A DNA stretch of 64,000 bases, from positions 62,001-126,000 of the forward strand of contig CATQHC010000006.1 of assembly GCA_958295775.1 (NCBI GenBank), given 5' to 3'. The number at the start of each line of letters is the position of its first letter. Position 1 is the stretch's first letter. The DNA is from Chloroflexota bacterium. Lineage in GTDB: Bacteria; Chloroflexota; UBA11872; VXOZ01. The position numbers and the translations under genes were made by a program. The notes below the pieces were generated by a model. It did no database searches. It was not told the origin of the DNA and saw only the letters and a program-made list of their open reading frames with translations. This document shows positions 1 to 18,478 of this stretch, piece by piece.

Positions 1-1
1 A

Positions 2-238
2 CTTCCCTGGGACAGTCTTAAGGTAGCATTTGACTACGGGAATTTGCCTCTCCAGAGCGCAGTAGACTTTGTAGCATTCTTGGTAAATCTGCAATCAGGG
101 AAGTCGCGGTTTGCTCCTGGAGTTGCGACTGTTGGCGGGAGAACTCAGGTTGCGGTAATCTCGAAAGTAGAAGGATTTCGAATTCTCAATGAACCGGAGT
201 TGCAGCATCGGCACACAGGATTTGGCGACGATGTATAA
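2..238 (+). CDS. 3' end of an unidentified protein (cut by window edge)
   Basis: This frame is open from the first bases of the window to a TAA at 236-238 and gives 78 residues with a natural composition (motifs FAPGVATVGGR, KVEGFRILNEPEL, HTGFGDDV). The other forward frames here are broken by stops. I do not recognise the family. The C-terminal acidic ending and the lack of hydrophobic segments suggest a soluble domain. A rho-independent hairpin lies about 200 bases downstream, which fits the end of a transcription unit. The protein start lies outside the window. Confidence 0.45.
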   Translation, partial: LPWDSLKVAFDYGNLPLQSAVDFVAFLVNLQSGKSRFAPGVATVGGRTQVAVISKVEGFRILNEPELQHRHTGFGDDV

Positions 239-240
239 CA

Positions 241-416
241 GTGATCGAAGTGGCGTTGTCAGACAAAGCAAAGGCAAAGAACCTCGGCCACGTGATGGAT
301 GGCGGAGTGGTAGTTCTGGCGACTCTGAAAAACAGGAAAAGGCAGTACCTGAAAAAAAAGAGGAGCGCGTGCGGCTTGTTCAGGTTAGGGGCAAGATTAG
401 GCCCGTGCGAGTGTAA
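241..416 (+). pseudogene. Possible small basic ORF split by an A8 frameshift
   Basis: A GTG at 241 begins just after the stop of the preceding ORF and reads VIEVALSDKAKAKNL and on to a lysine-rich stretch encoded by eight A residues at 352-359. In that frame the reading then runs through the downstream terminator. One frame over, the same A-run leads into EERVRLVQVRGKIRPVRV and a TAA at 414-416, 21 bases before the terminator. The arrangement suggests one small basic protein of about 58 residues whose reading frame is broken or programmed to slip at the A-run. No family is recognised, and it could be non-coding. Confidence 0.25.
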
Positions 417-437
417 GTCGAAACCTCTTGTATTCAA

Positions 438-468
438 GCAAACACCCGCAACTAAAGCGGGTGTTTGC
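438..468 (+). terminator. Rho-independent terminator-like hairpin
   Basis: A perfect 12-bp stem (gcaaacacccgc at 438-449, gcgggtgtttgc at 457-468) with a 7-base loop. The T-run after it is weak (ctattctt). It lies after the stop codons of the first ORFs. The region 469-760 has no ORF that I can support. Confidence 0.6.
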
Positions 469-760
469 TATTCTTGATTCTCAAGTGGGACACACAGATA
501 GGCCAATTCTTCAATAAGGGAGACTTCATCTCAACTGCCGCAGTTCATTGTTATTCTTGTGAACGATGCTCAACATCTGTCCGAGAGCAAGCCACGGCTA
601 GGAATTGGTTCATCAGAGATATCAACTATTGCCTAGATGTCTAAGCCAGACTACCGTTGCAAGCTGCCAGCAGCCTAGAATTAAATGAGTAGACACACCC
701 CGATTCAGCTAGTATTCTAGACGCTGCGGCAGTGGGAGCATCAAGGAGGATGCGCAACGC

Positions 761-2290
761 ATGCTGACCACGTGGGTACTGATCGTCTTCTTGGCGTACT
801 TCGCCGCACTCATCGGCATTGCGGTCTTTCGCAGCCGCCAGATGCGGGAGATGTCCGACTACGTGCTTGCGGGCCGCAAGGTTGGCAGCTTCACCTCGGC
901 GTTGAGTTCCAGTTCTTCCGCCACCAGCGGCTGGACGATGCTGGTCTTCCCCGCGCTGGCATTCATGAATGGCGCCGTGGAATTCTGGACGGTGTTTAGC
1001 ATCGTCATTGGGCTCTGGTTGACGTGGACGATCTATGCCAAGCGGCTGCGCCGCTACACGATTGCCGCAGATAACTCCTTGACGTTCCCAGAGTTCTTCG
1101 AAAAGCGATTCGGGGATAAGCGGGGCGTGCTGCGCACGCTCTCCGCGGCTATCGCCCTCTTTTTCATCATTTTCTACATTAGTTCCGGCTTGATTGCCGG
1201 TTCCAAACTGCTGAATACGGTTTTCGGCCTCGACGGCATCGTGGGTATATTGGTGACACTGGTCGCTGTCGCGTCTTACACGTTTATCGGCGGCTTTCTC
1301 GCCGTTTCCCGCACCGACGTCTTTCAGGCCTTGATCATGCTGGCCGGATTCGTCATCTTGCCGATTACGCTGCTTTTCCTTACCTCGGACCCGTTCCAGG
1401 GACTGGAAGATACAGCCGCCGGCTTTTGGAATCCGTTTACGGACGCCGCGGGCGACGGCATCACCGTAACGTTCGTGCTTTCTACAATCGGCTGGGGCTT
1501 GGGCAGTTTTGGCTCGCTGCGCATCCTGCAGCGCTTCATGGCGGTGGAAAACGAAGCGCGCATACGGCCCAGCCGTGACATCGGCACACTATGGACGACA
1601 GTAATTTTCTTATTCGGCCTCTTGCTGGGGCTTGTCGCCTTACCGGCGCTGGGTGAGATTGGGAGGCTCGATGAGGTTACCGCCGACCCGGAGCGCCTTT
1701 ACTTAGTCGCCGCTACGGTATTCTTCCCGCCAATCCTAGCGGGTGTCCTGCTGTCAGCCGTTATCGCCGCAGTAATGAGTACGGCAGACTCACAATTGCT
1801 CTTGGCATCGGCCATGGCGACTGACGACCTGCCGCTCATTCGGCGTTACGCGTATGCCAACCGGTACATCTATGTGCTTGGCGCCTTTGCCCGTGTGTGG
1901 CTGGGCCGCTTCCTGCTGGTCGTGGTTGGCATCATCGCGGCCCTGCTCTCGATCTTCAACCCCGAATCGGTGTTCAATCTGGTGTCGTACGCCTGGGGCG
2001 GTATGGGCGCGGCCTTTGGCCCACTCATTCTATTGTCGCTCTATTGGCGCCGCTTTAACTTCTGGGGTGCGCTGGCATCGATGCTCTCCGGTACGGTGAT
2101 TGCTTCCATTTGGGGCTATTTCTCCGGCGGTCCCGGCGGCATGATGGACATTGAACCGGCCACCCCCGGCTTTCTCATCGCCATTCCCATCGCCGTGGTA
2201 GTCACATTGCTCACAGCCCAGCCGTCTGAGGAGATTACGGAAGTCTTCGATGACGTCACTACCGGCTGGTCTGAAGCTCACCGGGTCTAG
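761..2290 (+). CDS. putP: Sodium:solute symporter, PutP-like (SSS family)
   Basis: 509 residues, almost wholly hydrophobic, with about 13 membrane segments as expected for the sodium/solute symporter (SSS) family. The N-terminal part carries the family pattern SDYVLAGRKVGSF followed by a Ser-rich helix (SSSSSATSGW), as in sodium/proline symporters, and an internal conserved region with SADSQLLLASA-type sequence near residue 345. The likely role is sodium-coupled uptake of proline or a related solute across the inner membrane. The start is chosen from a strong ribosome binding site (AAGGAGGA, 743-750) ten bases before ATG 761. It is monocistronic, with a terminator 80 bases after the stop. The substrate is inferred from family likeness only. 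Confidence 0.85.
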   Translation: MLTTWVLIVFLAYFAALIGIAVFRSRQMREMSDYVLAGRKVGSFTSALSSSSSATSGWTMLVFPALAFMNGAVEFWTVFSIVIGLWLTWTIYAKRLRRYTIAADNSLTFPEFFEKRFGDKRGVLRTLSAAIALFFIIFYISSGLIAGSKLLNTVFGLDGIVGILVTLVAVASYTFIGGFLAVSRTDVFQALIMLAGFVILPITLLFLTSDPFQGLEDTAAGFWNPFTDAAGDGITVTFVLSTIGWGLGSFGSLRILQRFMAVENEARIRPSRDIGTLWTTVIFLFGLLLGLVALPALGEIGRLDEVTADPERLYLVAATVFFPPILAGVLLSAVIAAVMSTADSQLLLASAMATDDLPLIRRYAYANRYIYVLGAFARVWLGRFLLVVVGIIAALLSIFNPESVFNLVSYAWGGMGAAFGPLILLSLYWRRFNFWGALASMLSGTVIASIWGYFSGGPGGMMDIEPATPGFLIAIPIAVVVTLLTAQPSEEITEVFDDVTTGWSEAHRV

Positions 2291-2369
2291 ATTAACGTGG
2301 GGCTTAGAGAAAGATAGCGCGGACACGTTTTGGTACGACTGAGCGGCCGGAACCCATTCTGATGGAACA

Positions 2370-2391
2370 ACACCCGCCTTGCGGCGGGTGT
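2370..2391 (+). terminator. Hairpin terminator after the symporter gene
   Basis: Perfect 9-bp stem acacccgcc/ggcgggtgt with loop ttgc, followed by gtgtatttct. It lies between the convergent symporter and NIF3-like genes and may serve both strands. The stem core resembles the hairpin at 438-468. Confidence 0.65.
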
Positions 2392-2429
2392 GTGTATTTC
2401 TCAGACCGCTTGGGGCCGGCACTTGCTCT

Positions 2430-3446
2430 TCAATGCCTGAGTGACCTGATTATGGGTCCAGACGCCAGCAACTGCGCGAGGTCTCCCGCCCGGTCTACGC
2501 GGCCGAAGTAGTTGCAGGGAACTACCTCGAACGTCTCCAAACGGCGCATGAGTTCATCGAGCAGCAAGTTCTGGCCGATGTTGTCCGTGGCGTAGTGGGG
2601 CAAGCGCACGAGCGCAATGCCGTGCTCGCGGCAGGCCTCTACTGTTGCCGCTCCCGCCGACACCTGCACCACTGTAGTCACACCGGCTTTCACCAACAGC
2701 GGGAAGGCGCTGGGTGGATACGCGTAGCCACCGGCAAATTTCGCGTGGATGCGCCCGGCGGGCTGATCTGCAGCGCCGGTCATGATGCGGGGCACGGCGC
2801 CAATGCGGGCGGCTTCCTGCATCTCCGGTATCGTCAGCATGATCTCGATAATGTCGCCCACGGTCCGCGGCTGCTCCCGCGCGAAGAGCGCGTTGATGTA
2901 TTGGCGGTGGGCGAGGTCTACCGGCGTATGGATGCAGGCCAGCGGATACCCCAGCAGTTTGGCGGTATCGGGCCCAATGCGGTGCACGTCTTCGTGTTCC
3001 CGCAGCCGTGCCGCCATGAAGTCGAAGATGCAGGTACGCGCCTCATCTTCCGGCACACCTTCCCAGATGAGATAATCGGCGTTGATCTCCATGAAGTCGG
3101 CAACCAAAGAGGCTGAGATACCGACGCTGTTCGTATGGTGCGAAATGAACGCATCGATCTTCGTTCCCTTCGCGGCGAGTTGCGCGCCGAGCAGCATCTC
3201 TTGCACGTGCATGTTAATGCCGACCAGCGCGGTGCCGATGGACGTGTCATCGGGGCCGTTGGCAATGCGCACGTCGCCGTAAGGATTCCTAAAGCGCTCT
3301 TGATCATAGAGCGCCTTTTCCCAGGTAGGCAGCGCGGCGTATTCGTCGCGTCGATGCTGCAGTTGCCGCTCAATGGCTTCCTGGCCCCTGGGATCGAGCT
3401 CTCGGCCGATTTCGATGGACGTCTCGTACAAGTCGCGCAGGGTCAT
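2430..3446 (-). CDS. NIF3-like protein, paralogue 1
   Basis: About 338 residues, starting at ATG 3446 so that it begins MTLRDLYETSIEIG like its two paralogues in this window; the longer reading frame to 3488 has no counterpart in them. The layout resembles the NIF3 (NGG1-interacting factor 3) superfamily: a HH pair in SHHTNSVG near residue 102, ACIHTPVD near residue 178, and a C-terminal VRLPHYATDN, all likely metal-ligand regions. The C-terminal CNYFGRV motif is shared by all three copies. NIF3 proteins are dinuclear-metal proteins, often linked to GTP cyclohydrolase-like chemistry, but their role is poorly known. This copy lies alone, 8.5 kb from the other two. The family assignment rests on motif spacing. 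Confidence 0.6.
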   Translation of the reverse strand: MTLRDLYETSIEIGRELDPRGQEAIERQLQHRRDEYAALPTWEKALYDQERFRNPYGDVRIANGPDDTSIGTALVGINMHVQEMLLGAQLAAKGTKIDAFISHHTNSVGISASLVADFMEINADYLIWEGVPEDEARTCIFDFMAARLREHEDVHRIGPDTAKLLGYPLACIHTPVDLAHRQYINALFAREQPRTVGDIIEIMLTIPEMQEAARIGAVPRIMTGAADQPAGRIHAKFAGGYAYPPSAFPLLVKAGVTTVVQVSAGAATVEACREHGIALVRLPHYATDNIGQNLLLDELMRRLETFEVVPCNYFGRVDRAGDLAQLLASGPIIRSLRH

Positions 3447-3717
3447 ACACGTGCTCCCATGCCACAATTCGGTTGCGGTACCATCCACATACTAGCCTTG
3501 CTGCGGAGATTGAACCGTGGGGGCGAGGCAATCCGGTATTCAGCCTCACCCTATCCCTCTCCCACAGTATACAGAGCGGGGTGTACACTTTGGGAGAACG
3601 CCTTCGCGAGGAGGCGTGGGAGCGCGGAGCTCTCCACTTTCACCTGTACTTAAGTCTCTGGCCGATTGAAAAGCAACGGAAGGAAAAAACGCCATTACAA
3701 CCGCTAAGGTAGGGACT

Positions 3718-5076
3718 ATGCTGCGGCGAATTGCCATTGTTGGCGGAGGCATTTCAGGGCTGGGCGCCGCCTGGGCACTGGATCAGCATCGGGACCGTTT
3801 TGACTTCCGGCTGTTCGAGGCCCAAGAACAAATCGGTGGAAATGCGATTACGGCTGACATGCCGCAAGCTGACGGCAGTTCAATCCCCTTCGATATTTCC
3901 GTCACCGCTTGTATCCCGTCGGTCTACCACCACATCCTCCTATTAATGGAAAAGTACGGCATCGACCTGATCGATACCAAATTCAGCTATAGCGTGAAGT
4001 ACCGCGGCCAGGTGTACGCACACGACTTCGAATCTGAAATCAGGGAGCAATTACAGTTCGAAATCACGAAGTTCCAAAGACTCTTGGAGCGTCTCCACTG
4101 GTTTGGCGGCCTGACCCGCGCCCAATCGAAGCTGCTGAACGCCCTCAACCCATTCAATTACCTGAGCATGGGGACGGTTTTGAATCTGGGAGGGTTTTCC
4201 GGGGAATTCAGATACAAGATATTGAAGCCGATGTTCGTCAACTTTCTGATGGCAACGAACGTATTCGACATGCCCGCAGCGCTCTTTGCCCGGTATCTTG
4301 AATTTTTCGACATCGAGTCCGCTACTCCCATGCAAACGTGGGGCCAGGGCACACGGGGCATTTACGAGAACCTAACGGCGAACTTTCGGGACAAGATCTA
4401 CCTCAACCGGCCGGTCCGCAAGGTGCACCGGCAAGAATCTCGCGTCGTAATCGAGGACGAGAACGGTGACCGCGAGGTATTCGACGAGGTGATTCTCGCC
4501 TGTAATGCGAACCAAACTCTGATGCTGCTCGACAGACCCACTTTTCTTGAACGCTATATTCTCTCGTCAATACGCTACGAGAGCGAGCTCCACAACCATA
4601 CGGTAGTCCATTCCGACTCCTCGGTCCTGCCGGACAACGAAGTGAAGCCCTTGACGACGCGGAGCAATCACATCGAACAGTACGGCGCGAGACCGGACAA
4701 CTATGAAATCACGTACATCATGCACAACCAGCAACCGTGGGCAAACCGCTCAGACAAACCCTGCTTGGTGACCTATAACCCCATCAGCCCCATCGACGAA
4801 CGCAAGGTTGTCAAGAAGTGGTGGTTTCAGCACATCGTCCATGACGTGCGGCACGTCGCGTGGCTCGTCAACCTGTTTCGCTTCATCCAGGGCAAGCGAC
4901 GCACGTGGCACTGTGGGGCGCATACTCTGATCAACAGCCAGGAGACGTGCCTCGTTACCGGGCTCGCGACGGCACGGCAAATCGGCGCGGCCTACCCTTT
5001 CGACGATCCCGCGGCAAAGCGCATGTTCAACTACTACGGACGCATCATGTACGGTTGGCGCTTTCGGAAGGCGTAG
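3718..5076 (+). CDS. FAD/NAD(P)-binding amine-oxidase-like oxidoreductase (COG2907-like)
   Basis: 452 residues. The N-terminus has the Rossmann dinucleotide-binding motif IVGGGISGLGAAW (residues 6-18) with an acidic strand end (LFEAQEQIGGNA), diagnostic of the flavin amine oxidase / phytoene desaturase fold. Mid-protein NHTVVHSDSSVLPDN and the C-terminal WHCGAHTLIN resemble the predicted NAD/FAD-binding COG2907 proteins, which often accompany lipid-modifying enzymes. A flavin oxidase or desaturase acting on a hydrophobic substrate is the likely role, by inference. ATG 3718 follows a modest purine stretch (AAGGTAGGG). It precedes a convergent Rieske oxygenase gene, with a repeat-containing gap between them. 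Confidence 0.75.
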   Translation: MLRRIAIVGGGISGLGAAWALDQHRDRFDFRLFEAQEQIGGNAITADMPQADGSSIPFDISVTACIPSVYHHILLLMEKYGIDLIDTKFSYSVKYRGQVYAHDFESEIREQLQFEITKFQRLLERLHWFGGLTRAQSKLLNALNPFNYLSMGTVLNLGGFSGEFRYKILKPMFVNFLMATNVFDMPAALFARYLEFFDIESATPMQTWGQGTRGIYENLTANFRDKIYLNRPVRKVHRQESRVVIEDENGDREVFDEVILACNANQTLMLLDRPTFLERYILSSIRYESELHNHTVVHSDSSVLPDNEVKPLTTRSNHIEQYGARPDNYEITYIMHNQQPWANRSDKPCLVTYNPISPIDERKVVKKWWFQHIVHDVRHVAWLVNLFRFIQGKRRTWHCGAHTLINSQETCLVTGLATARQIGAAYPFDDPAAKRMFNYYGRIMYGWRFRKA

Positions 5077-5118
5077 CACGGGGGCTTGCGCCGCCAGAAC
5101 ACACGGAACGGCGACCGC

Positions 5119-5213
5119 GTCAGCAGCGGACGCAGGTTGCAGACCTGCGCTACCGGAGTCAGCAGCGGACGCAGGTTACGCGCACCTCCCGTGCGAACCT
5201 GCGCTACCGGAGT
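5119..5213. repeat. Two tandem copies of palindromic repeat family A (gap 5077-5380)
   Basis: Two head-to-tail copies of a unit that begins gtcagcagcggacgcaggtt and ends acctgcgctaccggagt: 5119-5159 and 5159-5213. The second copy carries a longer, different loop. Each is a hairpin, and the core is the inverse of the family-A elements at 26456 and 43196. The rest of the 304-bp gap holds no gene that I can support. Confidence 0.75.
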
Positions 5214-5380
5214 TTCGGGGCATTGAGAGTGCACTGTTCCTTGCCGGAAGAGTACGTGCAATGCTGTTGGGGCTCGTCCTCCGCCACTTGGCGAGGAACG
5301 CACACACCATCTCTGGCAAGGCGCTAAGCGGACCGGGCGTGAGCCGTGCAGCAGCCACGGCGGTCAACCGGCCGGCAACG

Positions 5381-6433
5381 TCAGGCAGTTGAGCCGCCGT
5401 TTTCGCTCGCATCGGGATAGAATTGGGCGCAGTAGCGGCGGTAGCGGGTGATCTCGCCGTCGGACTTGCAGAGGCGCGGCCGGGATTGGTACCGCTTGCG
5501 GCTCCAGATGATCTCATCCTGCAGCACTTCCCGCTCTTGCTGCGACGCGGTGAACTTGTTCATGATTGGCGCGCGCATGCCCACCGGCAGAAAACCCAGG
5601 CCTGCGAGCCAGCGTTTCGGCTTGCGCAACTCCCGCACTTGCGAGGCCAGCGACATCTCTATGAGCGTGCCGTCAATAGGAGTCGACAGCACCCAGAGAC
5701 GCATGTCCATGCCGATCGAGTGTTCGCGAATGTCCACGAATGAGTAGCCGAGCCCGTGGACATGCGTGTCGGCGGTAAGATCAAACGTGAGTTTTGCGAC
5801 TCTCGCGATGGAGCGGGTGGACCTGAAGTTGAAACGGCTCCTCAGATAGGGACCGTCCACCGACACCGGCTCAATGCGTTCCACCTTGCCAAAGCCGTGG
5901 ATGTAGCGCAGATGGGCCAGGTCCACCGCGTTCTCCGAAGTCTCCTGGGGATGGCCGGCAAAGCGGACGGTGCGGATTTCGAGGTCACACCAGCCGTCTT
6001 CATCCAGGGAGTCCGCAGGCAGGCGCCACTGCGGTTCCCGTCCCTCGCTCCCCCACCAAGCGAAGATCATGCCGGCGATTTCCTCTGTCTCGAAAACGCG
6101 CAACCCCGTGGCCCGTGGCGCGGGGGCATACGGCGTGGCGACGCACGTGCCGGTGGCATCGAACTCATAGCCGTGAAATGGACATACCAGCCGGCCCGCG
6201 CGCACGCGGCCCCCGGCAGCGGGGCTCAGGTCGGAGCCCAGGTGCGGGCAGAACCCCTCGGCAACGCAGATTTGGCCGCTATCATCGCAATACACGACGA
6301 TGTTCTCACCCATCCAGGTCTTCTGGATGAGCTTCTCTTTCTCGATGTCCTTGCGGCTTGCTATGAAGTACCAGCCCTCGGGAAACGGAGAAGGGAGCGT
6401 ACCGCTCTCAGGCGCTCTGAGTTGAGTTGCCAT
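5381..6433 (-). CDS. Rieske [2Fe-2S] non-heme iron oxygenase
   Basis: 350 residues with the two-domain layout of a ring-hydroxylating oxygenase alpha subunit. The Rieske centre is C62-x-H64 and C84-x2-H87 (FCPHLG ... CPFHGYEF). The mononuclear iron site lies in ENAVDLAHLRYIHG: bridging Asp171, His174 and His179. The short catalytic domain and the SENAVDLAH form are closer to sterol or ketosteroid Rieske oxygenases (KshA, Neverland/DAF-36 type) than to benzoate-type enzymes; this is inference from pattern. No reductase or ferredoxin gene is adjacent, so electrons must come from elsewhere. It is divergent from the GPP34-P450 gene, with 250 bases between the starts, suggesting shared control. 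Confidence 0.85.
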   Translation of the reverse strand: MATQLRAPESGTLPSPFPEGWYFIASRKDIEKEKLIQKTWMGENIVVYCDDSGQICVAEGFCPHLGSDLSPAAGGRVRAGRLVCPFHGYEFDATGTCVATPYAPAPRATGLRVFETEEIAGMIFAWWGSEGREPQWRLPADSLDEDGWCDLEIRTVRFAGHPQETSENAVDLAHLRYIHGFGKVERIEPVSVDGPYLRSRFNFRSTRSIARVAKLTFDLTADTHVHGLGYSFVDIREHSIGMDMRLWVLSTPIDGTLIEMSLASQVRELRKPKRWLAGLGFLPVGMRAPIMNKFTASQQEREVLQDEIIWSRKRYQSRPRLCKSDGEITRYRRYCAQFYPDASENGGSTA

Positions 6434-6683
6434 TGCTTCAAGCTTAGATTAAGTAAGTTTGGCAGGCATTGACTTGCTTGCCGTCAGCAAACTAACATAC
6501 ACTCAATAGTAGCAAATCCACTTACATGTCACATTGCGGACGCGTTTATGTATGGAGTGCCGCCCGCTTCCTCGGATAGACAGAACCCATTTTCTATTCC
6601 TATTGCGCTGGATTAACCTACCCAATTCTTTGCCGCGTTGAGACGGCCTCCCGGGATCCAAGTCATACAAGGAGGTAAGACTT

Positions 6684-8717
6684 GTGTCTGTCGCAACCGA
6701 AAACATCGCCACCCACGAACTGACGCTGCCGCAAGAACTCGTTCTGATGTTCCTCAATGAGGAGACCGGCTACTTCCACCAAGTGCCCGGCTGGAATTTG
6801 AATTGCGCCATCATCGGCGCCCTCCTGGCGGAACTCTTAGTCCGCTACCGCATTGACGCGGATGGGGAATCCCTTAAAGTTCTGGACCGGACAGAGACGG
6901 GCAACCTTGTCTTGGATCCCATTCTAGCGAGAATCGCAGACGAACCGGAGGAGCACACTGTTGAGTATTGGGTCGAGCGGCTCGTCTTTCGCGCACCGTC
7001 GATCATCGAACTGATTCTGGAGCGCTTAGTTGAGCAAAATGTCCTGGATTATCATGAGGGCGAGTTCTGGACGCTGGCGCGCACTTCCTGGCAAACGGAA
7101 GTTTACGCTAAATCCCGTGGCAGCACTGCGGTTGAGTTCGTCAAGACGCGCGTGGGCAAGACGATCTTCGACAATGAGATTCCCAGCCTAAGAGATGCCA
7201 TCATTATCTGCCTCCTCGATACGTGCGACGTCCTCCGCTTCATATTCCAACTTGACGATGAGTCAGAGGAACGCATCAAACTCATCTGCAGGATGAGTTT
7301 GATTGGCCGGTCAGTCGCCGAGGCGGTCGCCAGCAATTTCGCCGGCGGCACGCTCCAGCGGTCCGTTCTTGCCAAGTCGATTCCAACCGTCCCATTGCAC
7401 AAGCTGCTGTTGAATCCGCATGTGCGCACCGGCAACATTCCGGCGATCTTTGCGGAACTGAGAAAAGAGTACGGCCCGGTGTTTCAGTTGCGTCCGCCCT
7501 TTTCCGAGCCTCTATATTTCATAGGCGGACCCCGCGTAAATCAATGGGTGCAACGAAACGGGCGGCAGTACCTACGGGCGCGGGATTACTTTGCCGACTT
7601 CGAGAAGGTCTACGGCGCGTCCGGACTCATTCCCGCCGTGGATGGAGCCGACCACTTCCGGCTGCGCAAGGCCATGTCTCCGGGGTATTCACGCGAGAGA
7701 CTGGAGGCGCAACTGGATGAGGTCTATCGCAACGCCCGCACGTATATGGCGGATTGGAAGGTCGGTGACTCCTATTCTGCGCGGTCACTGTGCCGGCGGA
7801 TGATCAATGCGCAAATTTCGCCGCTCACCGTCAGCATTGAGTCACAAGACATCGTCGACGATCTCATGGCATACAAAGAACGGGGCCTCTGCACGCACGT
7901 CGCGCGGGTCCTGCCCAAGTTCATGCTCTATACCCCCGGCATGAGACGCCGGGCGAAAGTCGTCGATGAGGTGACGAACCGGGTCCAACGCGTCCATACG
8001 CCCGCCCAGCGCGCGGGTCGTCCACGGGATCTTGCGGATGACCTTCTCAGCCTTCAGGCCAGCGATCCGCAGTTCCTGCCGGAATCGAATATGCCGTTCA
8101 TGCTCTCGGCGCCGTTGCTTGCCAGCATGTATCTGGGCGATGCGCTGAGCTTCGCGGTCTACGCCATGGCGGCGCAGCCCGAAATGTACGCAAGGATTCA
8201 GAAAGAAGCCGACGCCTTGTTTGGCGATGGCGATCCGCAGGGCGAAGACTTCACCCTGGAAGCACTCGACGTCACGCACCGCTTCCTCATGGAGGTCATG
8301 CGCATGTACCCGGTTGTGCCCATGTCTATTCGCAACGTCATGAACACCTGCGTGGTGGAAGGCTTCGAGTTGCCGGTGGGCGCGCGGATCCATATCGCTA
8401 CGACCGCCTCTCATTACTTGGAAGACGCCTTTCCTGAACCGTTCACCTTCGATATCGACCGCTATACGGCGCCGCGCAATGAGCATCGCAGCCGGGCGTA
8501 CGCCCCCTACGGCCTGGGTACACACACCTGTCTCGGCACTCGGCTAATGGAACGGCAATTGGCGATCAACGTGCTGATGATCGCGCACTACTTCACGCTC
8601 GAGGTATCCCCAGACAAGTTCAAGCGCAAGCTCACGTTCAGCCCCTTCCCGTCCAACAAACCGAGCGGGAAGCTGAAGTTCGTCATCGCCGAGCAGCGGC
8701 GCGAGTTATCTGCTTGA
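6684..8717 (+). CDS. GPP34-like domain fused to a cytochrome P450
   Basis: 677 residues. Residues about 12-215 match the Golgi phosphoprotein 3 (GPP34) pattern: ELTLPQELVLMFLNEE, AIIGALLAELLV, a LERLVEQNVLDYH winged-helix-like strand, and a closing LRDAIIICLLDTCDVL ... IGRSVAEAV helix pair. Residues about 235-670 are a cytochrome P450: K-helix E537-V-M-R540, and heme loop PYGLGTHTCLG with ligand Cys616. The loop has Tyr in place of the usual Phe. The I-helix (478-493, LLASMYLGDALSFAVY) lacks the normal acid-alcohol pair, with Met482-Tyr483 at that place. The start is GTG 6684, eight bases after AAGGAGGT. GPP34 binds phosphoinositide in eukaryotes; its bacterial ligand is unknown. A membrane-lipid or terpenoid substrate is likely but inferred. 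Confidence 0.85.
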   Translation: MSVATENIATHELTLPQELVLMFLNEETGYFHQVPGWNLNCAIIGALLAELLVRYRIDADGESLKVLDRTETGNLVLDPILARIADEPEEHTVEYWVERLVFRAPSIIELILERLVEQNVLDYHEGEFWTLARTSWQTEVYAKSRGSTAVEFVKTRVGKTIFDNEIPSLRDAIIICLLDTCDVLRFIFQLDDESEERIKLICRMSLIGRSVAEAVASNFAGGTLQRSVLAKSIPTVPLHKLLLNPHVRTGNIPAIFAELRKEYGPVFQLRPPFSEPLYFIGGPRVNQWVQRNGRQYLRARDYFADFEKVYGASGLIPAVDGADHFRLRKAMSPGYSRERLEAQLDEVYRNARTYMADWKVGDSYSARSLCRRMINAQISPLTVSIESQDIVDDLMAYKERGLCTHVARVLPKFMLYTPGMRRRAKVVDEVTNRVQRVHTPAQRAGRPRDLADDLLSLQASDPQFLPESNMPFMLSAPLLASMYLGDALSFAVYAMAAQPEMYARIQKEADALFGDGDPQGEDFTLEALDVTHRFLMEVMRMYPVVPMSIRNVMNTCVVEGFELPVGARIHIATTASHYLEDAFPEPFTFDIDRYTAPRNEHRSRAYAPYGLGTHTCLGTRLMERQLAINVLMIAHYFTLEVSPDKFKRKLTFSPFPSNKPSGKLKFVIAEQRRELSA

Positions 8718-8895
8718 CGCGGCAATGCTCGCTTACTCCTCTCGCCACGTCGGACGCAGCGCGGGCTCTAGGCGGCTTTAGCAGTCGCCGGCCCGTATGC
8801 AGGCAGCCCCAGGGAATACTGACCCCAGCAGCCGGTCACGGCATTTAGGCCGCCAGCACGCAAGCATCCCCTTTTAGCGCACGTTCAGGCGAGTT

Positions 8896-11361
8896 CTATG
8901 CCTGCTCGTAGCGCTGCTGCACGGCCTCGATCTCCAGATCGAGCTCGTCCGCCCAGCGCTTCACCTTGGAGCGCAGCCGGACATTCTGGTAGGCGCCCCA
9001 GATTGTCATCGCAGGTGGAACCAGCAGGACGGACACTAACAGCGAGTAGAGGATCGTGATGGAAGCCGCAATTGCGAACTGCTGGGACGCAAGCAGCGGC
9101 GAGGCAATTAGCGCGCCAAGTCCGAGCGCCGTCGTGAGCGCGGAACCCAGCAGCGCCGAGCCGGTAGTCGCGAGTGTCCGGATTGCCGCCTGCTCCGGGT
9201 CCCGCCCGCGGGCGTACTCTTCGCGATAGCGATGAATCACATGGATAGTGTAGTCAACGCCGATGCCTACTGAAAGCGCCGTGATAATTGACGTAACCAG
9301 CGAATAAGGAATATCCAGCAGCGCCATGGTGCCCAGCACCGAGATCAGCACGAGCACGATCGGGCCCACCGCGATGATGGACAGCGCCGGCTGGCGCACC
9401 GTCACCCAGAAGAAGAGCGTCAGCACGCCGAGAGCCACCGCGATGGTAGTAGCAATCGCCTCTGTCTGTCGTTCTGTAATAGCGTCCGTGATTGTGATAG
9501 AGATGATACTCTCCGATGTTGCCGTTATATCCTCGGCATCACCTAACCAAAGAGTCTCTATTGCCTCCTGAATCTCTTTAGCTTGACTGGTGTCGCCCGA
9601 GAAGGCCGGGAATTGGAGCAGCATCGCATCAGTGCCGGCCGGATTGTTGACCAGGAGATACGAGAGCGTCGGGTCCTGCGCTTGGAGCCTATCGAGGAAC
9701 TCCTGCATCAGCCTGGTATCCAGTCGCACACCCGCCGAGGCTTGCCGGAAAAGGGCGGCGAGCTCCGGATCGTATTTGTCGCCGGGCTGGCCGCTGTCGT
9801 GAATCCAGTCACGCACAAGCAGTTCATACGATGCCTGAATTGGCCCCGCCGCGGCGCCTGGGCGGCGCTCTTCGTCCTCGAAGGCGGCGGTGATGTCCCG
9901 CAGGTTCAGCAGCGTGCGGGTCTCTGTGGCCTCGGCTTGGACGAGTACACTAACTATCTCCGTTGAGCCGCCAAATGCCGCGTCGATGGTGTCCAAGTCC
10001 GCCAGTAAGCTGCCGCCTCTGGGCAAAATGTCGCGGATGTTGAATTCCGACTTGATTCCTGTCGCCGCGTAGCCCAGCGCAATCGTAACCCCGAGCACTA
10101 CGATGAGGTAGGGCGCAGGCGCGCGCGTGATACTCCTGCCCAGCAGTGCCGCCAAGCCTTCGATACCGGGCAACGCCGCAGCTACCAGACGGGGCGACTT
10201 TAGTTTGCCCCGGGCTTCCCGACGCCGGTCGATGATCGTCCTGCCGGCCGGGAGCAGTGTCAGCATCACGATGAGGGTCATGCCCACACCCAAACCCGCA
10301 ACCATGCCGAAATCGCCAATAATTCCTATAGGAGAAAACAGACTTACCAACAGGCTCACGATAGTGGTGACTGCGGCCAGCACCAGCGGAATGGTAACGT
10401 TGCGCAGTCCTCTTTGGGCGGCCGCTACCACCGGCTCGCCTTCATGTCGCTGCTCGCGATAGTGTGAGACGATCTGAATCGCGTAGTCCACCGTAAGGCT
10501 GATTACAATAATTGGCACCATCGCGGTAAGCTGATTTGGCGGCCCGATGATGCCCAGCGCGTCAGGACCCAACCAACCTTCCACACCAACAATCCACATC
10601 AGCGAAATGAAGAGTCCGGCCAGCGTGAGTAGTAGATCAGATAGTGTGCGCAGGAAGAGCATGATAAGCCCGGCGATGAGCAAGAGCGCCAGCCCAATCA
10701 ACGGCCCCATGCCTTCCTGGGTGGCCTTCTTGTACTCGTCCTCGATCACCGCAGGTGATACGCTGCTCACCTGCAGCGGCCCCTCCGATGCGGCTGCAAG
10801 TTCGTCTATTCTAAGTTCAGCGTCGTCAATGCGCTCATCACCCGTGTCCCGCAAACGGATAATGGCAATTGCCACCTCAGTACCATCCGTATCGGCGCCG
10901 GTCAGGGCGTCAAGCGCCGCCTGAATCTCGGGTGGGCCGCGGGCAGCATTGATCTGTTCCTGCGTGACAGCTGCTACGTTGTCCGTTTGGAGCACAGCCT
11001 TGATCAGCAACACGGGCGCGATGAGGGGATCGACCGGCGCAAACAACCCATTTACGGCTGGATCGCCGACGATCTCATCGATCAGGGCATCCATCTGCGC
11101 TAGACCGCCGGGCGTGAGCGCGCTGCCGCGGAAGAGGAGCGTTACCACATTGGCTTTACCGGATTCACCAAAGAGCTCATCGATCTCAGCTATGGCTTCG
11201 GCAACGCTGCTCCCTGGGGGAAGTATTGCCTCGTCTCCGGGGGGCGGCGCGCGACGCACGGCTCCCGCGGTCAGGAAGATCGTTATGTTGAGAATCACGA
11301 AGATCGTGATCCACGGGTAGGTAGTTATTAACCGGCTAAACCTACCAAGTATCCCTTCCAT
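8896..11361 (-). CDS. MMPL/RND-family transporter
   Basis: 821 residues with the RND repeat layout: one membrane helix near residues 16-35, a large extracytoplasmic loop, five or six helices, then the whole arrangement again. Each half has the family signature at the fourth helix region, DYAIQIVSHYREQ in the first and DYTIHVIHRYREE in the second. The family (COG1033; HpnN, MmpL and sterol-sensing Patched relatives) exports lipids, hopanoids or other hydrophobic compounds by proton motive force. ATG 11361 has GAGGAG eight bases upstream. It lies convergent with the GPP34-P450 gene and may move the product of the neighbouring oxygenases, by inference. Confidence 0.85.
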   Translation of the reverse strand: MEGILGRFSRLITTYPWITIFVILNITIFLTAGAVRRAPPPGDEAILPPGSSVAEAIAEIDELFGESGKANVVTLLFRGSALTPGGLAQMDALIDEIVGDPAVNGLFAPVDPLIAPVLLIKAVLQTDNVAAVTQEQINAARGPPEIQAALDALTGADTDGTEVAIAIIRLRDTGDERIDDAELRIDELAAASEGPLQVSSVSPAVIEDEYKKATQEGMGPLIGLALLLIAGLIMLFLRTLSDLLLTLAGLFISLMWIVGVEGWLGPDALGIIGPPNQLTAMVPIIVISLTVDYAIQIVSHYREQRHEGEPVVAAAQRGLRNVTIPLVLAAVTTIVSLLVSLFSPIGIIGDFGMVAGLGVGMTLIVMLTLLPAGRTIIDRRREARGKLKSPRLVAAALPGIEGLAALLGRSITRAPAPYLIVVLGVTIALGYAATGIKSEFNIRDILPRGGSLLADLDTIDAAFGGSTEIVSVLVQAEATETRTLLNLRDITAAFEDEERRPGAAAGPIQASYELLVRDWIHDSGQPGDKYDPELAALFRQASAGVRLDTRLMQEFLDRLQAQDPTLSYLLVNNPAGTDAMLLQFPAFSGDTSQAKEIQEAIETLWLGDAEDITATSESIISITITDAITERQTEAIATTIAVALGVLTLFFWVTVRQPALSIIAVGPIVLVLISVLGTMALLDIPYSLVTSIITALSVGIGVDYTIHVIHRYREEYARGRDPEQAAIRTLATTGSALLGSALTTALGLGALIASPLLASQQFAIAASITILYSLLVSVLLVPPAMTIWGAYQNVRLRSKVKRWADELDLEIEAVQQRYEQA

Positions 11362-11732
11362 GGCACTCCTCTTTATCTGAGAGAATCTCGCAGAGCGGCG
11401 TAGAACCCAGGCGGAGTCCGAGTGCTGGCACGGGAGCCTTGGACGTGGCAGACGACATTGTCCTCCTCAGGTTAGGCGACGGTGTACTGCCCCATCCAGG
11501 ACTCTTCTACGAGCCTATCCCTAACAATCGCCTCACGGCGTCCGCCAGATTCCGGTTGTCCGGAGGTGGAGAAGACAGCGGTGCGATCTCGGGCGATTTC
11601 TCTCAATTTGCTCTCTCATAACACTCGCCACAGTAGATTTTCAATTGACAGCATACCCATAAGCCAACTAACGCGTTCTCAATGGTACCAAAACCCCTTG
11701 TCCAGCACAGACCGGTATCCGCACTTCCACTG

Positions 11733-11903
11733 TACTCCGGCTTCGGCGCAGGGACAGCGGTTGATTTCGCCAAATCTCGTATTGGCAAGGTGCGATTTAA
11801 TTGCGAGTTGCCGAGTACAACGGACGCGATGCTCGTCACACCCATGGATTTGTGCGCTGTCCTTCGCTTGATAATCCTACTCGATGAGGCATTTGAGGAG
11901 CAC
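11733..11903 (+). pseudogene. Relic of a second GPP34 domain
   Basis: In one forward frame 57 residues align without gaps to residues around 146-202 of the GPP34-P450 protein; I count 25 identities (for example FAKSRIGK against FVKTRVGK, and LCAVLRLI against TCDVLRFI). No GPP34 N-terminal part, no P450 part and no ribosome binding site are visible around it, and the 3' part runs into the convergent NIF3-like gene. It is best read as the remains of a duplicated GPP34 gene. The rest of the gap 11362-11923 holds nothing I can name. Confidence 0.6.
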
Positions 11904-11923
11904 ACGCCCAATGCCAATGAGGG

Positions 11924-12895
11924 TCAAATCCCGTTGCGTTTGATGCGCTCGAAGTAGTTGCAGGGAATGACGTGCAGCGGCCCGAGACGCTGCTCCACCT
12001 TGTCGAGCAAGAGGTTGAGGCCGACGTTATCGCAGGCGTTGTGGGGCATGCGCACCCAGCCCATGCCGAGTTCCTGCGCCTGGCGCTGGTGGGCAGCCGG
12101 GCAACCGATGGTGACGAACGTGCCGACGCCTGCCTCTTTAAGCAATGGGATCACCTCTACCGGAAACATCCAGCCGCCGCCGTCCTGATGGAAGATGCGG
12201 CCCATCGGCTGTTCCGCGTCTCCCGCCATAATCCGCGGGATCGCCCCAATCCGCGCCGCGCCCTGAAATTCAGGCAACGCCAGCAGCGCCTCCACCACGT
12301 CGCCCACCGTCTCGGCATGAGCGTCCTCAATAGCCCCCCGCACGCCCCGGCCGTGATGAAAGTCGGCCGGTGTATGGATGCACGCCAGCGGAAACTCCAG
12401 CAATTTCGCCATGTCGATGCCGTTGCGGTTGAAGTCTTCGGCGTAGTTCCAACGGTCGGTCATCATGTCCGTGATGTGGGGCTCGGCGTCGGCCCGGGCT
12501 ACACCCGCATCTGCGAGCAGGTCAACGTGATAGGGCACCGTGTCATAGATGAGCGTATCCGCCGGTACCCCGATGCCGTTGGTATGGTGGGAGAGGACGG
12601 CGTCGATGCGTGTGCCGCTGCCGCGCAAATTGTCCGCTAGCAGGAGTTCTTGCGTGCCGATGTTTATGCCCATGAGGATGGTAGTGAGTTCGGTATCTGC
12701 CGGACCATGCACAATGCGCACGTCGCCGTAAGGATTGTTGAAACGCTCTTGGTCGTAATAGGGCTTGCGCCACTCCGGCAGCGCTGCGTACTCCTGTCGC
12801 CGCTGCACAAGCTGGCGGTCAAGGGCTGCCCGTCCGCGCGGGTCCACTTCACGGCCGATTTCGATGGCTGTATCGTACAGATCACGCAGGGTCAT
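11924..12895 (-). CDS. NIF3-like protein, paralogue 2
   Basis: 323 residues, beginning MTLRDLYDTAIEIG. It shares with the other two copies the N-terminal block RFNNPYGDVRIVHGPAD, the HH pair in SHHTNGIGV (His103, His104), LACIHTPAD (His174, Asp178), the C-terminal VRMPHNACDN and the closing CNYFERIKR. These match the metal-ligand segments of the NIF3 superfamily, though the copies are divergent from YbgI/YqfO and lack the inserted PII-like domain. It lies 137 bases downstream of paralogue 3 on the same strand and could be co-transcribed with it. The function is unknown. Confidence 0.6.
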   Translation of the reverse strand: MTLRDLYDTAIEIGREVDPRGRAALDRQLVQRRQEYAALPEWRKPYYDQERFNNPYGDVRIVHGPADTELTTILMGINIGTQELLLADNLRGSGTRIDAVLSHHTNGIGVPADTLIYDTVPYHVDLLADAGVARADAEPHITDMMTDRWNYAEDFNRNGIDMAKLLEFPLACIHTPADFHHGRGVRGAIEDAHAETVGDVVEALLALPEFQGAARIGAIPRIMAGDAEQPMGRIFHQDGGGWMFPVEVIPLLKEAGVGTFVTIGCPAAHQRQAQELGMGWVRMPHNACDNVGLNLLLDKVEQRLGPLHVIPCNYFERIKRNGI

Positions 12896-13032
12896 ACCAC
12901 TATTCCCAGTCTATTGCCCGTTGCCCGTGATTTGCCTAATCGCGTCACTCCCGTGACCTGCCTATTCCCGTCACTCCCGCTGCGCTGCTCGCTCTCGCCG
13001 GGCACTTGGTCGCAATAGGCACTAACCATACT

Positions 13033-13995
13033 CTAGTTGCGCTTTACTCTTTCGAAGTAGTTGCACGGGATGACATTGAGCGGTCCCAACCGGCGTTCCA
13101 CTTCATCCAGCAGCAAGTTGATCCCAATGTTGTCGCACGCCGCGTGGGCGATGCGCACGATTGCCACGCCCGCTGCCTGCGCGGTCTGCGCGTGCACCGG
13201 CGTACAACCTATCTGCAGCACGGTATTCACCCCTGCGTTGCCGAGCAACGTGTACGCATCCGGCGGCAGCAAGTAGCCGCCGCCAAACTTGAGCAGCATG
13301 CGTCCCGCCGGCCAGTTTTCTTCTCCACTCATCACGCGGGGTTCAGCGCCAATGCGGGCCGCGCTCTGCACTTCAGGTATCTCCATCAGGGCGCGCACCA
13401 CGTCGCCAACGGTCTGGGGCTCTGCTGCTTCCACTGCGGGTCGGACGCCTTCGCCAATGTAGTAGTCCGCCGGCGTATGGATGCAGGCCAACGGGAACCC
13501 CAGCAACTTCGCCATGTCGGGCCCCATGCGGGCCGTATCCTCAAGTGACTGCTCTTTCTCCTCGATAGAGCGGTTGATGCACACCGCCGCGTCCGCGCGG
13601 GGCACTCCTTCTTCGGCTAAGAAGTCAATCGCTACCGGCATGAAATCGTGCACCAGCGAAATGGCTACGCCGATGCCGGTGGTGTGGTGGGCAATCACGG
13701 CGTCGATCTTCGTGCCCTTGCTGCGCAAGCGGTCGGCCAGCAAGAGTTCGTCCAAACCGATATTGATGCCCAGCAGGACCGTTTCTAGCTCCACGTCCGC
13801 CGGGCCGTTGACGATGCGCACGTCGCCGTAGGGATTGCGAAACCGCTCCTGGTCGTAGAAGGGCTGTTGCCACGCGGGTAACGCCGCATACTCCGCACGC
13901 CGCCGCGCGAGTTGCTGCCGCAACGCCGCCTCACCGCGCACGTCAAGCGCCATGCCAAGCTCAATTGACGTCTCGTAAAGGTCGCGTAGTGTCAC
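13033..13995 (-). CDS. NIF3-like protein, paralogue 3
   Basis: 320 residues from GTG 13995 (MTLRDLYETSIELG). It carries the same landmarks as paralogue 2: RFRNPYGDVRIVNGPAD, AHHTTGIGV, LACIHTPAD, VRIAHAACDN and a final CNYFERVKRN. Its first half is the closest of the three to paralogue 1 in the helix that follows the start. It is the upstream member of the 13995-11924 pair and is divergent from lhgO. A dinuclear-metal hydrolase role is plausible from the family; the substrate is unknown. Confidence 0.6.
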   Translation of the reverse strand: MTLRDLYETSIELGMALDVRGEAALRQQLARRRAEYAALPAWQQPFYDQERFRNPYGDVRIVNGPADVELETVLLGINIGLDELLLADRLRSKGTKIDAVIAHHTTGIGVAISLVHDFMPVAIDFLAEEGVPRADAAVCINRSIEEKEQSLEDTARMGPDMAKLLGFPLACIHTPADYYIGEGVRPAVEAAEPQTVGDVVRALMEIPEVQSAARIGAEPRVMSGEENWPAGRMLLKFGGGYLLPPDAYTLLGNAGVNTVLQIGCTPVHAQTAQAAGVAIVRIAHAACDNIGINLLLDEVERRLGPLNVIPCNYFERVKRN

Positions 13996-14245
13996 CCAAA
14001 ACTCTTTTCCGGTAAAACGTATGCGGTGAGTATAGCACAGCGGATTGCCACACCTTTACCTGTCACCTTCAATACGCGAGCGCGACTGTGAGCACTCATT
14101 CAGCATCCCCAAAAAGAGGTCTACGACTGCAGCCTACCTACAATTCCGCCAAACGGTCATGCTCCGGCCCACATGGCTGCCACAGGCGCAGTATAATTCG
14201 ATGCAGCACCGATCTCACCTGGGCAGGGGAAGTCTACGTCTGAAA

Positions 14246-15466
14246 ATGAAATCAGGGTCTCTCCTAGACATCGCCATCGTCGGCGGCGGCATCGTCGGCT
14301 TGTCAACGGCGCGCACGCTTGCCGAGCGGCATCGCGGTCTCCGCATCGCCGTCATCGAAAAAGAGGCCGATACTGCCCAACACCAGACCGGCCATAACAG
14401 CGGCGTAATCCACTCCGGTATCTATTACCGGCCGGGTTCGCTGCGCGCGCGCATGGCCGTGCAAGGGTCCGAACGCATGGTGGCCTTCTGTGAAGAGCAC
14501 GCTATTCCTTACGACCGCTGCGGCAAGGTGATTGTGGCCACTGAGGAATTCCAGATCGCGGCTTTGGAAGCGCTGGCCCGGCGCGGCGCAGCGAACGGTG
14601 TGCCGGGGGTGCGCATGATTGGACCCGAAGAACTGGCAGATCTGGAGCCGCACGCCACTGGCATGCAGGCGCTGCACGTGCCGAGCGCCGGCATTGTCAA
14701 TTACAGCCTGGTAGCGCAAACGTATCGCAAGCTCTTCGAGCAAGCCGGCGGTGAGGTGCGCACCGGGGCGGAAGTAACCGCAATTGCCGAAGAACCCAAT
14801 GGCTTGCGGTTGGAGACGGCGCAAGGGGACGTGCGCAGTAAGCACGTCATCATTTGCAGCGGCTTGTTTGCGGACCGCGTCAGCATCTCCGCCGGCCTAA
14901 AACCGCCGCTCAAGACCGTGCCCTTCCGCGGGGAGTACTACGAACTCGTACCGGAGAAACGTCACTTGGTGCGCAATCTCATCTACCCCGTGGCCAATCC
15001 CGCGTTCCCCTTTCTCGGCGTCCACTTCACCCGGCGCATTAGCGGCGCAATCGAAGTGGGGCCGAATGCCGTGTTCGCATTCAAGCGCCAGGGCTACCGC
15101 TGGCGCGACGTGAGTATCAAGGACACGGCCGACATCCTGGGATACGTGGGTTTCTGGCGGATGACGGCCCGCTACTGGCGCACCGGCCTCGGCGAAGTGT
15201 ACCGTTCGTTGCGCAAACAGGCGATGGTGAAAGAGTTGCAGAAGCTCGTGCCGGTCGTTGCCAACCAAGACCTGGTGCGCGCCGGCGCGGGGGTACGCGC
15301 CCAAGCGTTGGACCCGCAAGGGAAGCTCATCGAGGACTTTCACATCGTGCAGAAGCCGCGCATTATCCACGTGCTCAACGCACCCTCGCCGGCGGCCACG
15401 GCCTCGCTCAGCATTGGCGACGCGGTGGCCGATATGGCGGGACAATGGCTCCCGCCATCCACATGA
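14246..15466 (+). CDS. lhgO: L-2-hydroxyglutarate oxidase (LhgO-like)
   Basis: 406 residues from ATG 14246. The reading frame extends upstream to 14045, but that part is low-complexity and the flavin-binding motif IAIVGGGIVGLSTA follows this ATG directly, as in the family; AGGGGA lies 14 bases before it. LhgO features include HQTGHNSGVIHSGIYY, where the flavin sits, and a C-terminal AGVRAQALDPQGKLIEDF. The enzyme oxidises L-2-hydroxyglutarate to 2-oxoglutarate, passing electrons to the quinone pool, and so repairs or recycles this by-product. The gene stands alone between NIF3-like paralogue 3 and the rpsB operon. Confidence 0.85.
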   Translation: MKSGSLLDIAIVGGGIVGLSTARTLAERHRGLRIAVIEKEADTAQHQTGHNSGVIHSGIYYRPGSLRARMAVQGSERMVAFCEEHAIPYDRCGKVIVATEEFQIAALEALARRGAANGVPGVRMIGPEELADLEPHATGMQALHVPSAGIVNYSLVAQTYRKLFEQAGGEVRTGAEVTAIAEEPNGLRLETAQGDVRSKHVIICSGLFADRVSISAGLKPPLKTVPFRGEYYELVPEKRHLVRNLIYPVANPAFPFLGVHFTRRISGAIEVGPNAVFAFKRQGYRWRDVSIKDTADILGYVGFWRMTARYWRTGLGEVYRSLRKQAMVKELQKLVPVVANQDLVRAGAGVRAQALDPQGKLIEDFHIVQKPRIIHVLNAPSPAATASLSIGDAVADMAGQWLPPST

Positions 15467-15615
15467 GCATTGCGTCGAGAAAGAGGACAATGGCCGCCTG
15501 TGCGCAACGCACACCATAGCGCGGCAGCCTCCCTGCGGACGGCATGACTGCAGTGGCAAGAGGTCGGCGGTGCGGTCGAGCGTATGGTACATACGCGCAT
15601 AAAAGCCTGCGTGCG

Positions 15616-15645
15616 TTGCCGCACGCGCGGCGAAACCGGTATACT
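15616..15645 (+). promoter_or_regulatory. Sigma-70-type promoter for the rpsB operon
   Basis: TTGCCG (15616-15621) and TATACT (15640-15645) are 18 bases apart. This places a start site near 15652, about 110 bases before rpsB, leaving a leader that could carry S2 autoregulation. The assignment is by consensus match only. Confidence 0.5.
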
Positions 15646-15763
15646 GTGTTAGATAGTCAATGAGCCTGCTACGTAGGTATACGTGCGAGGCTCAATAAAC
15701 GTGTGTAATAGCAGCGAGCCTGACCGCTCGTAGGCACAAGAGTGCAGAAGGGGTCGCGAACGT

Positions 15764-16564: not shown

Positions 16565-16617
16565 ACCGCAATCAATTTGAAGATTTAGACCAGCTAAAGG
16601 GAGTTTTAATTCAACCA

Positions 16618-17124: not shown

Positions 17125-17191
17125 AAAGCACGCGGAGATCGCGTGGTTTCATTTTTCGCGCAGGCAACCAGGTCACGACCAGAGAGGACCC

Positions 17192-18476: not shown

Positions 18477-18478
18477 CG

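Follow-up and report, generated by a model that had tools for sequence, protein, structure and literature searches.

The window analyzed here is a stretch of 64,000 nucleotides from a Chloroflexota bacterium (GenBank assembly GCA_958295775.1, contig CATQHC010000006.1, positions 62,001 to 126,000 of the forward strand), and four adjacent genes within it, encoding a flavin oxidoreductase, a Rieske oxygenase, a fusion of a GPP34 domain with a cytochrome P450 and an MMPL/RND transporter, are a co-inherited module and a real unit. Judging from sequence, we favor, with reasonable though far from full confidence, the view that this is a sterol-tailoring and transport module that has spread horizontally among sponge-associated bacteria. 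The sequence-only reading of this DNA had proposed that the four genes share one theme and could together oxidize and export a membrane lipid, hopanoid or terpenoid; domain searches bore out the four open reading frames (ORFs) and, in broad terms, the protein types it had named, and the features are as follows.

3718..5076, plus strand: flavin (FAD) oxidoreductase of the amine-oxidase family (PF01593, 60 bits, 3.2e-16)
5381..6433, minus strand: Rieske oxygenase with a KshA_C domain (PF00355, 65 bits; PF19298, 88 bits; both above cut-off)
6434..6683, no strand: divergent intergenic region of 250 bp between the Rieske and fusion starts
6684..8717, plus strand: GPP34-P450 fusion with a GTG start and AGGAGG at 6670-6675; the relatives' copies are full length
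6726..7331, plus strand: GPP34 (GOLPH3-like) domain, residues 15-216 (PF05719, 1.3e-28)
7416..8678, plus strand: P450 domain, residues 245-665 (PF00067, 125 bits, 5.6e-36)
8121..8141, plus strand: I-helix stretch A480-S-M-Y-L-G-D486, aligned to CYP51 AGHHTSS
8529..8531, plus strand: codon of the heme-ligand Cys616, conserved in 81/81 fusions
8718..8895, no strand: gap of 178 bp where the sister genome G004 has a gene resembling sterol methyltransferases (SMTs)
8896..11361, minus strand: MMPL/RND (HAE3-type) transporter (PF03176, 168 bits; PF12349 Sterol-sensing, 53 bits against a cut-off of 22.3; PF02460 Patched)
11733..11903, plus strand: degenerate GPP34-like fragment beside the MMPL gene, a probable remnant (44% identity to fusion residues 141-197)

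The genome of the window (G000; 3.42 Mb, completeness 95.3%) holds one full copy of each of the four genes. We searched 61 genomes, 41 of the same class (its own included) and 20 others of the same phylum; the fusion, flavin and Rieske genes were all present in 22 of the 41 same-class genomes and all absent, at the identity levels given below, from 18, and the fusion stood alone in one (G037, fragmented into 510 contigs), for which a Fisher test of co-inheritance gives 9e-11, a value that ignores the kinship of the 41 genomes. The fusion was found in 23 same-class genomes at 58-100% identity (partial at contig ends in G031 and G037, two overlapping frames in G001), the flavin protein in 22 at 80% identity or more and the Rieske protein in 22 at 62% or more, and the flavin, Rieske and MMPL genes of the same-class loci lie near the fusion, within reach of the short stretches retrieved. 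The congener G002, 95% complete, lacks fusion, flavin and Rieske genes alike.

The association extends well beyond the class. A fusion alignment scan of 84,980 species genomes gave 354 stretches and 295 relatives, and the best 80 (62-89% identity), the "80 loci" of this text, belong to Chloroflexota (41), Gemmatimonadota (10), Pseudomonadota (10), Nitrospirota (6), Latescibacterota (3), Binatota (2), Actinomycetota (2), Verrucomicrobiota (1) and Myxococcota (1), with 4 unassigned. Near the fusion, 60 loci have a Rieske gene, 53 the flavin gene, 46 an SMT-like gene and 62 a transporter belonging to one of three types; among the 52 loci of at least 20 kb the counts are 43, 36, 31 and 46, with 5 lacking flavin, Rieske and SMT-like genes. 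All four types (flavin, Rieske, fusion and transporter) fall within 6.8-10.9 kb in 42/80 loci, so the arrangement is far above chance. Their clustering in variable order and strand (46 arrangement strings in the 80 loci), in metagenome-assembled genomes (MAGs) from nine named phyla, shows that the block travels as a unit. The neighborhood conservation that the sequence-only reading had asked for in Chloroflexota and sponge-symbiont genomes was found, and the outcome it had named as fatal, the four genes lying unlinked in related genomes, did not occur. That these are ordinary neighbors without a common function, as their alternating strands in the window might suggest, has a negligible probability: chance neighbors were rejected on the joint presence and absence in 41 genomes and on linkage across nine phyla with shuffled order, and the flanks differ in congeners as well.

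In a tree of 81 fusions, a quick one made without bootstraps, the phyla are interleaved, and at least 7 label changes are required for Chloroflexota, with well-supported branches forcing 5 of them. Errors in MAG binning can mimic transfer, though hardly at the scale seen here; one such error, in one of the two MAGs, is probably behind the near-identical fusions of L110 (Chloroflexota) and L111 (Rhodospirillales). The genes that flank the module in the window were not found near it in the congeners L042 and L043, and so the block has moved even within the genus. In the window, both sides of the cluster are flanked by paralogous genes (2430-3488, 11924-12895 and 13033-13995, all on the minus strand; about 320-350 amino acids, 52-60% mutual identity) that match no Pfam family, and the cluster may have landed inside their tandem array.

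With respect to habitat, several codes among 49 of the 80 loci presumably denote sponge projects. Of the others, L048, L053, L096, L107 and L121 are bins from the sponge Aplysina aerophoba according to a table of PMC5649159, and 26 further loci, coded RHO, COS, IRC or APA, would fit the sponge species sampled in PMC8163846.

A sterol, rather than a hopanoid or terpenoid in general, is favored as the substrate because SMT-type and ERG4/ERG24-type genes are linked to the module and because G000 has no cyclase match. Besides the four genes of the window, the commonest neighbor of the fusion in relatives is a methyltransferase with Sterol_MT_C above cut-off (52.1 bits against 21.7 in the one member scanned, the L086 protein); it adjoins the fusion in G001 and in G004, the nearest genome, where it lies between the fusion and the MMPL gene (L189:2810-3847). 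Matches to ERG4/ERG24 above cut-off occur in 23/23 same-class cluster genomes versus 1/18 others, and SMT matches in 20/23 versus 2/18 (P values for both ignore kinship). No SMT remnant was detected in the window at 8718..8895, and G003 and G005 likewise have no SMT match, so that loss or gain of this gene happened more than once; since the core of fusion, Rieske, flavin enzyme and pump is intact in the window without it, the core can do without the SMT in its role.

The SMT-like proteins are a clade of their own. In a comparison of 38 of them (SMT-B) with 20 canonical proteins, after length filters, they carry 15 clade-specific substitutions, and in place of YEYGWG, which we take to be region I of SMTs, the sequences displayed read M(V/E/I)(F/Y)GW(G/S), for example FMVFGWG or FMEFGWG, versus FYEYGWG or FYEFGWG in the canonical SMTs. 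As a separate observation, an ERG24-type reductase, a canonical SMT match and a second KshA_C Rieske protein (28% identical to that of the window) adjoin one another in G011 at L187:6553-10185; this is another kind of sterol-type cluster, and G011 has no cyclase match.

The sterol itself would probably come from the host. There was no match to PF13243 (squalene/oxidosqualene cyclase) in any of the six genomes of the genus, that of the window included, and a survey of 70 cluster genomes (21 of the 23 same-class ones together with those of 50 of the 80 loci) found no match of oxidosqualene-cyclase grade in 62. The other 8, six Nitrospirota and two Alphaproteobacteria, reach 722-755 bits with the oxidosqualene cyclase model, none above its cut-off of 851, and no other match exceeds 288 bits, a level in keeping with hopene cyclases. 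From these absences we consider that sterol synthesis is probably beyond most bearers of the module, which would have to obtain their sterols from the host; the incompleteness of MAGs makes any one absence less certain but leaves the overall pattern standing. De novo sterol synthesis by G000 was rejected on the same counts, and its own hopanoid is unlikely because no cyclase match was found. The sequence-only reading is supported in part, its choice of membrane lipid, hopanoid or terpenoid being narrowed to a probable sterol. One of the eight genomes, an alphaproteobacterial MAG with a GPP34-P450 fusion, also encodes a squalene epoxidase-oxidosqualene cyclase fusion (L169:1408-4866, minus strand) beside a canonical SMT, resembling the bifunctional MsbE described in PMC7074536.

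The rival to be taken most seriously, which we hold to be possible but clearly the lesser prospect, is that the module tailors a different isoprenoid or polyketide-like lipid that the bacterium itself produces (a carotenoid, a hopanoid or a secondary metabolite), the SMT-like and reductase genes having been recruited from sterol families. The divergence of the SMT-like clade would suit such recruitment, LkcE is the nearest solved relative of the flavin enzyme, and 17/23 same-class cluster genomes do have PF13243 matches of squalene-cyclase type; against this, no synthase or cyclase family recurs in the module, the whole genus of the window is without a PF13243 match, and the co-occurrence with ERG4/ERG24 is complete.

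The flavin enzyme, found near the fusion in 53/80 loci, is 77-90% identical across phyla, and such conservation suggests one fixed substrate. Its nearest solved relatives are LkcE (7.5e-29), which acts in lankacidin biosynthesis, and 2b9w (4.4e-14), which we take to be the PAI fatty-acid isomerase, the relation being near full length; the HpnE model TIGR03467 gave 30.4 bits against a cut-off of 283 and covered the N-terminal FAD site only. An MPAB/Lcp-type oxygenase lies near the module in 6/80 loci (L067:13423-14634 and five more), with PF09995 found in the one scanned.

The sterol-type catalytic motif ascribed to the Rieske protein is there: the window protein has both CxH..CxxH and NxxDxxHxxxxH, which recur in 61/61 and 56/61 full-length homologues, and KshA_C is above cut-off. 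A grouping with the aromatic-ring dioxygenases, which the sequence-only reading had put forward as evidence against itself, was not seen; the nearest solved structure is KshA (8.6e-29), with aromatic dioxygenases far lower in the list, and the SdmA model NF052579 matched the Rieske part only (35.9 bits against a cut-off of 600). KshA-like catabolism of host steroids for carbon would account for this protein, and steroid degraders do occur in sponges (PMC5790920), but the only degraders found in that study are Actinobacteria and Proteobacteria, and an SMT is anabolic. We rejected catabolism because TIGR03213 was above cut-off in 0/70 cluster genomes, with no match in G000; TIGR03213 is a 2,3-dihydroxybiphenyl dioxygenase model and a diverged HsaC could score low against it, and we regard this explanation as very improbable.

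The transporter differs by lineage. Chloroflexota and Actinomycetota have an MMPL protein, and the type of the window is present in 38/80 loci; Gemmatimonadota, Latescibacterota, Verrucomicrobiota and 2/10 Pseudomonadota loci have an AcrB-type RND pump, often with an adaptor; and a second MMPL occurs in Binatota and, accompanied by a LolA_like protein, in 5/10 Pseudomonadota loci. Placement of the window's MMPL in a hopanoid/sterol-sensing group held in its second half, the Sterol-sensing match being above cut-off in the cluster MMPL and not in another MMPL of the same genome, but failed in its first, the HpnN model TIGR03480 giving 101.2 bits against a cut-off of 751.85 (TIGR00921 gave 195.5 bits, also under its cut-off). 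Hopanoid export as such was rejected on the HpnN score and the missing cyclase match. The Sterol-sensing argument is itself weak because the second-type MMPL of a relative also scores above the cut-off. A candidate family (u711) was dropped as a shadow ORF opposite the second MMPL and LolA_like pair, and elsewhere in G000 there is a broken MMPL remnant (L039; G000:C2:873762-874142, minus strand) that is 70% identical to the C-terminus of the cluster MMPL and has four in-frame stops.

The presence of a pump in 62/80 loci, AcrB-type with an adaptor in several phyla, together with the interleaving of phyla in the fusion tree, could also be read as detoxification, with oxygenases and RND pumps oxidizing and expelling a toxic lipid or xenobiotic made by the sponge. 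An SMT-type methyltransferase and sterol reductases fit that poorly, however, as does the high conservation of the flavin enzyme, and we think it unlikely.

The GPP34 domain of the fusion scores 100.9 bits against the Pfam cut-off of 29.1, although GOLPH3/Vps74 matches are weak; Trp37 and Arg170 are conserved in 81/81 fusions, while the Arg preceding the conserved Gly is replaced by Ile, Val or Ala (the other Arg positions were compared by eye only). The phosphatidylinositol 4-phosphate (PI4P) site of GOLPH3/Vps74 has Trp and Arg residues, with which Trp37 and the Arg positions were compared. Since the Trp is invariant and the Arg before the Gly is lost, docking to the membrane by the domain seems plausible, whereas specificity for PI4P is doubtful; GPP34 occupies the position at which P450s of eukaryotes have their membrane anchor. 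The papers listed for bacterial GPP34 dealt chiefly with insecticidal proteins, often because Gpp34 is also an unrelated protein name, and with insect pests.

In the P450 domain the heme-ligand Cys and the ExxR pair (E537, R540) are invariant in 81/81 fusions, but in place of the oxygen-activation motif AGx(D/E/H)T the I-helix reads A-S-(V/M/A)-Y-L, with Tyr483 at the acid/His position in 81/81 and Leu484 at the Thr position in 80/81. P450s without the acid-alcohol pair are known: prostacyclin and thromboxane synthases and CYP74 (isomerases/dehydratases), CYP152 (peroxygenases) and EryF (a substrate-assisted hydroxylase). From the loss of the pair and these precedents we infer that the fusion P450 would use non-canonical chemistry. 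The best profile match is CYP51 (8.4e-36, a Methylococcus protein). An AlphaFold2 model built from 29 sequences (predicted local distance difference test, pLDDT, 79.9), which replaced a first model with a pLDDT of 60.6, was used for the structure search; the top 18 rows are human CYP46A1 (cholesterol 24-hydroxylase; Z 35.3 to 34.6, best root-mean-square deviation 2.6 over 401 residues), followed by CYP51 (Z 34.3, 3.1 over 427) and oleic-acid-bound CYP184A1 (Z 34.2, 3.1 over 434). A second, distant family of GPP34-P450 fusions, 30-32% identical, exists at L166:1272-3314 (G003) and G034:C3:95289-97271; the G003 paralogue, of the same genus and about 30% identical, keeps the canonical I-helix AGADT, and the ORF after it resembles, by eye, a membrane acyltransferase.

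The sequence-only reading also held that the Rieske and P450 genes share a 250-bp divergent control region, and the gap measures exactly 250 bp. The divergent pair occurs in 23/80 loci, and the shared control region is therefore lineage-specific. It contains a promoter-like TTGACT-18-TAACAT at 6469-6498 on the plus strand, whose ATTGAC is invariant in 5/5 congeners, although the promoter scan overall was not above shuffles; sigma-70 and terminator scans likewise gave no signal above shuffles, the inverted repeats of the region are not conserved in G003, and an Rfam scan of positions 1-20000 of the window returned no matches.

Several points weigh against the sterol module that we favor. G000 has no SMT match and its sole ERG4/ERG24 homologue has an internal stop, so that the sterol link in this genome rests on its relatives. 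Members of the SMT-like clade are 71% identical among themselves but share only about 40% identity with the canonical SMTs that bacteria of the same kinds carry, and among solved structures they come closest to general methyltransferases. Neither KshA_C nor MMPL is exclusive to sterols, and the structure search barely separates CYP46A1 from CYP51 and from CYP184A1, a fatty-acid binder (Z within about 1). The Fisher values overstate independence because the 41 genomes are related, and 8/80 loci, some on short contigs, have no flavin, Rieske or SMT-like gene nearby. Substrate, product, reactions and transport direction are what we infer from sequence.

As a working scheme for this module, sterol from the sponge host would enter the cell, and the SMT-like protein, where present, could alkylate its side chain. 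The KshA-type Rieske enzyme would oxidize the ring system, the flavin enzyme would dehydrogenate or isomerize a double bond, and the P450, held at the membrane by its GPP34 domain, might act on that lipid too, through heme-thiolate chemistry that bypasses the customary oxygen activation by an acid-alcohol pair (candidates are isomerase, dehydratase or peroxygenase reactions and substrate-assisted oxidation). The MMPL/RND pump would then move the lipid across the envelope, in a direction that is itself conjectural. A bolder version, which we offer as a tentative and rather doubtful conjecture, is a mobile module for remodeling host sterols in at least nine phyla, in which a GOLPH3-like-docked P450 of sterol fold acts as a non-oxygenase heme enzyme, for example on a peroxide that arises once the sterol ring has been desaturated, and the SMT alkylates the side chain unlike 24-SMTs, for example at C-26. 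If that were true, part of the odd sponge sterols and of the sterane biomarkers would be joint products of host and bacterium.

It is a matter of debate which organisms produce the unusual sponge sterols, and with that what sterane fossils such as 24-isopropylcholestane signify; Brown et al. (2023; PMC10070321) ask whether symbionts alkylate sterols acquired from the host, and describe C-26 methyltransferases as undiscovered. With a module that often includes a diverged SMT-like gene, in many symbiont phyla and mostly without a sterol cyclase, that question becomes directly testable. That different phyla of a single habitat share one module also illustrates parallel gene acquisition by symbionts, and the fusion is a concrete protein with which to study both the role of bacterial GPP34 and a P450 without its oxygen-activating pair.

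Open-licence literature yielded nothing on GPP34 with cytochrome P450, or on a sponge-symbiont module of sterol, Rieske and P450 genes; in the portions of the papers considered, Rieske goes unmentioned in PMC10070321, PMC9531527 and PMC5649159, P450 in PMC10070321 and PMC5649159, and sterol in PMC5649159. Functional bacterial SMTs, including formers of 24-isopropyl side chains, are described in PMC10070321. The closest published systems are the msb sterol cluster of a gammaproteobacterial symbiont of Melophlus (PMC7074536) and the CSG, ERG24-CYP51-LSS, in 115/537 Ircinia MAGs of ten phyla (PMC9531527). Like the present module, these belong to sponge symbionts and, as far as those reports were consulted, involve ERG24, CYP51 and SMT genes, msb also a Rieske oxygenase, and the CSG likewise has evidence of horizontal transfer; theirs, however, include a lanosterol/oxidosqualene cyclase for de novo sterols, whereas most genomes surveyed here show no match of that grade, and the present module has the GPP34-P450 fusion, an LkcE/PAI-type flavin enzyme, the diverged SMT-like gene and a transporter of its own. 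It does not belong among the published clusters for de novo sterol synthesis.

Its single components compare in the same way. The Rieske protein has the KshA_C domain of KshA, the 3-ketosteroid 9alpha-hydroxylase, which is also its nearest solved structure, but no ring-cleavage dioxygenase accompanies it above cut-off in the 70 genomes, and SMT-like and reductase genes are linked to it instead. The transporter belongs with HpnN and MmpL3 to the MMPL-type RND family, yet it falls far short of the HpnN model. The fusion is nearest to CYP51 by profile and to CYP46A1 by structure, and differs from both in its N-terminal GPP34 domain and in the Tyr and Leu of its I-helix; the flavin protein, related to LkcE and PAI over nearly its full length, is set apart from them by its strong conservation across phyla.

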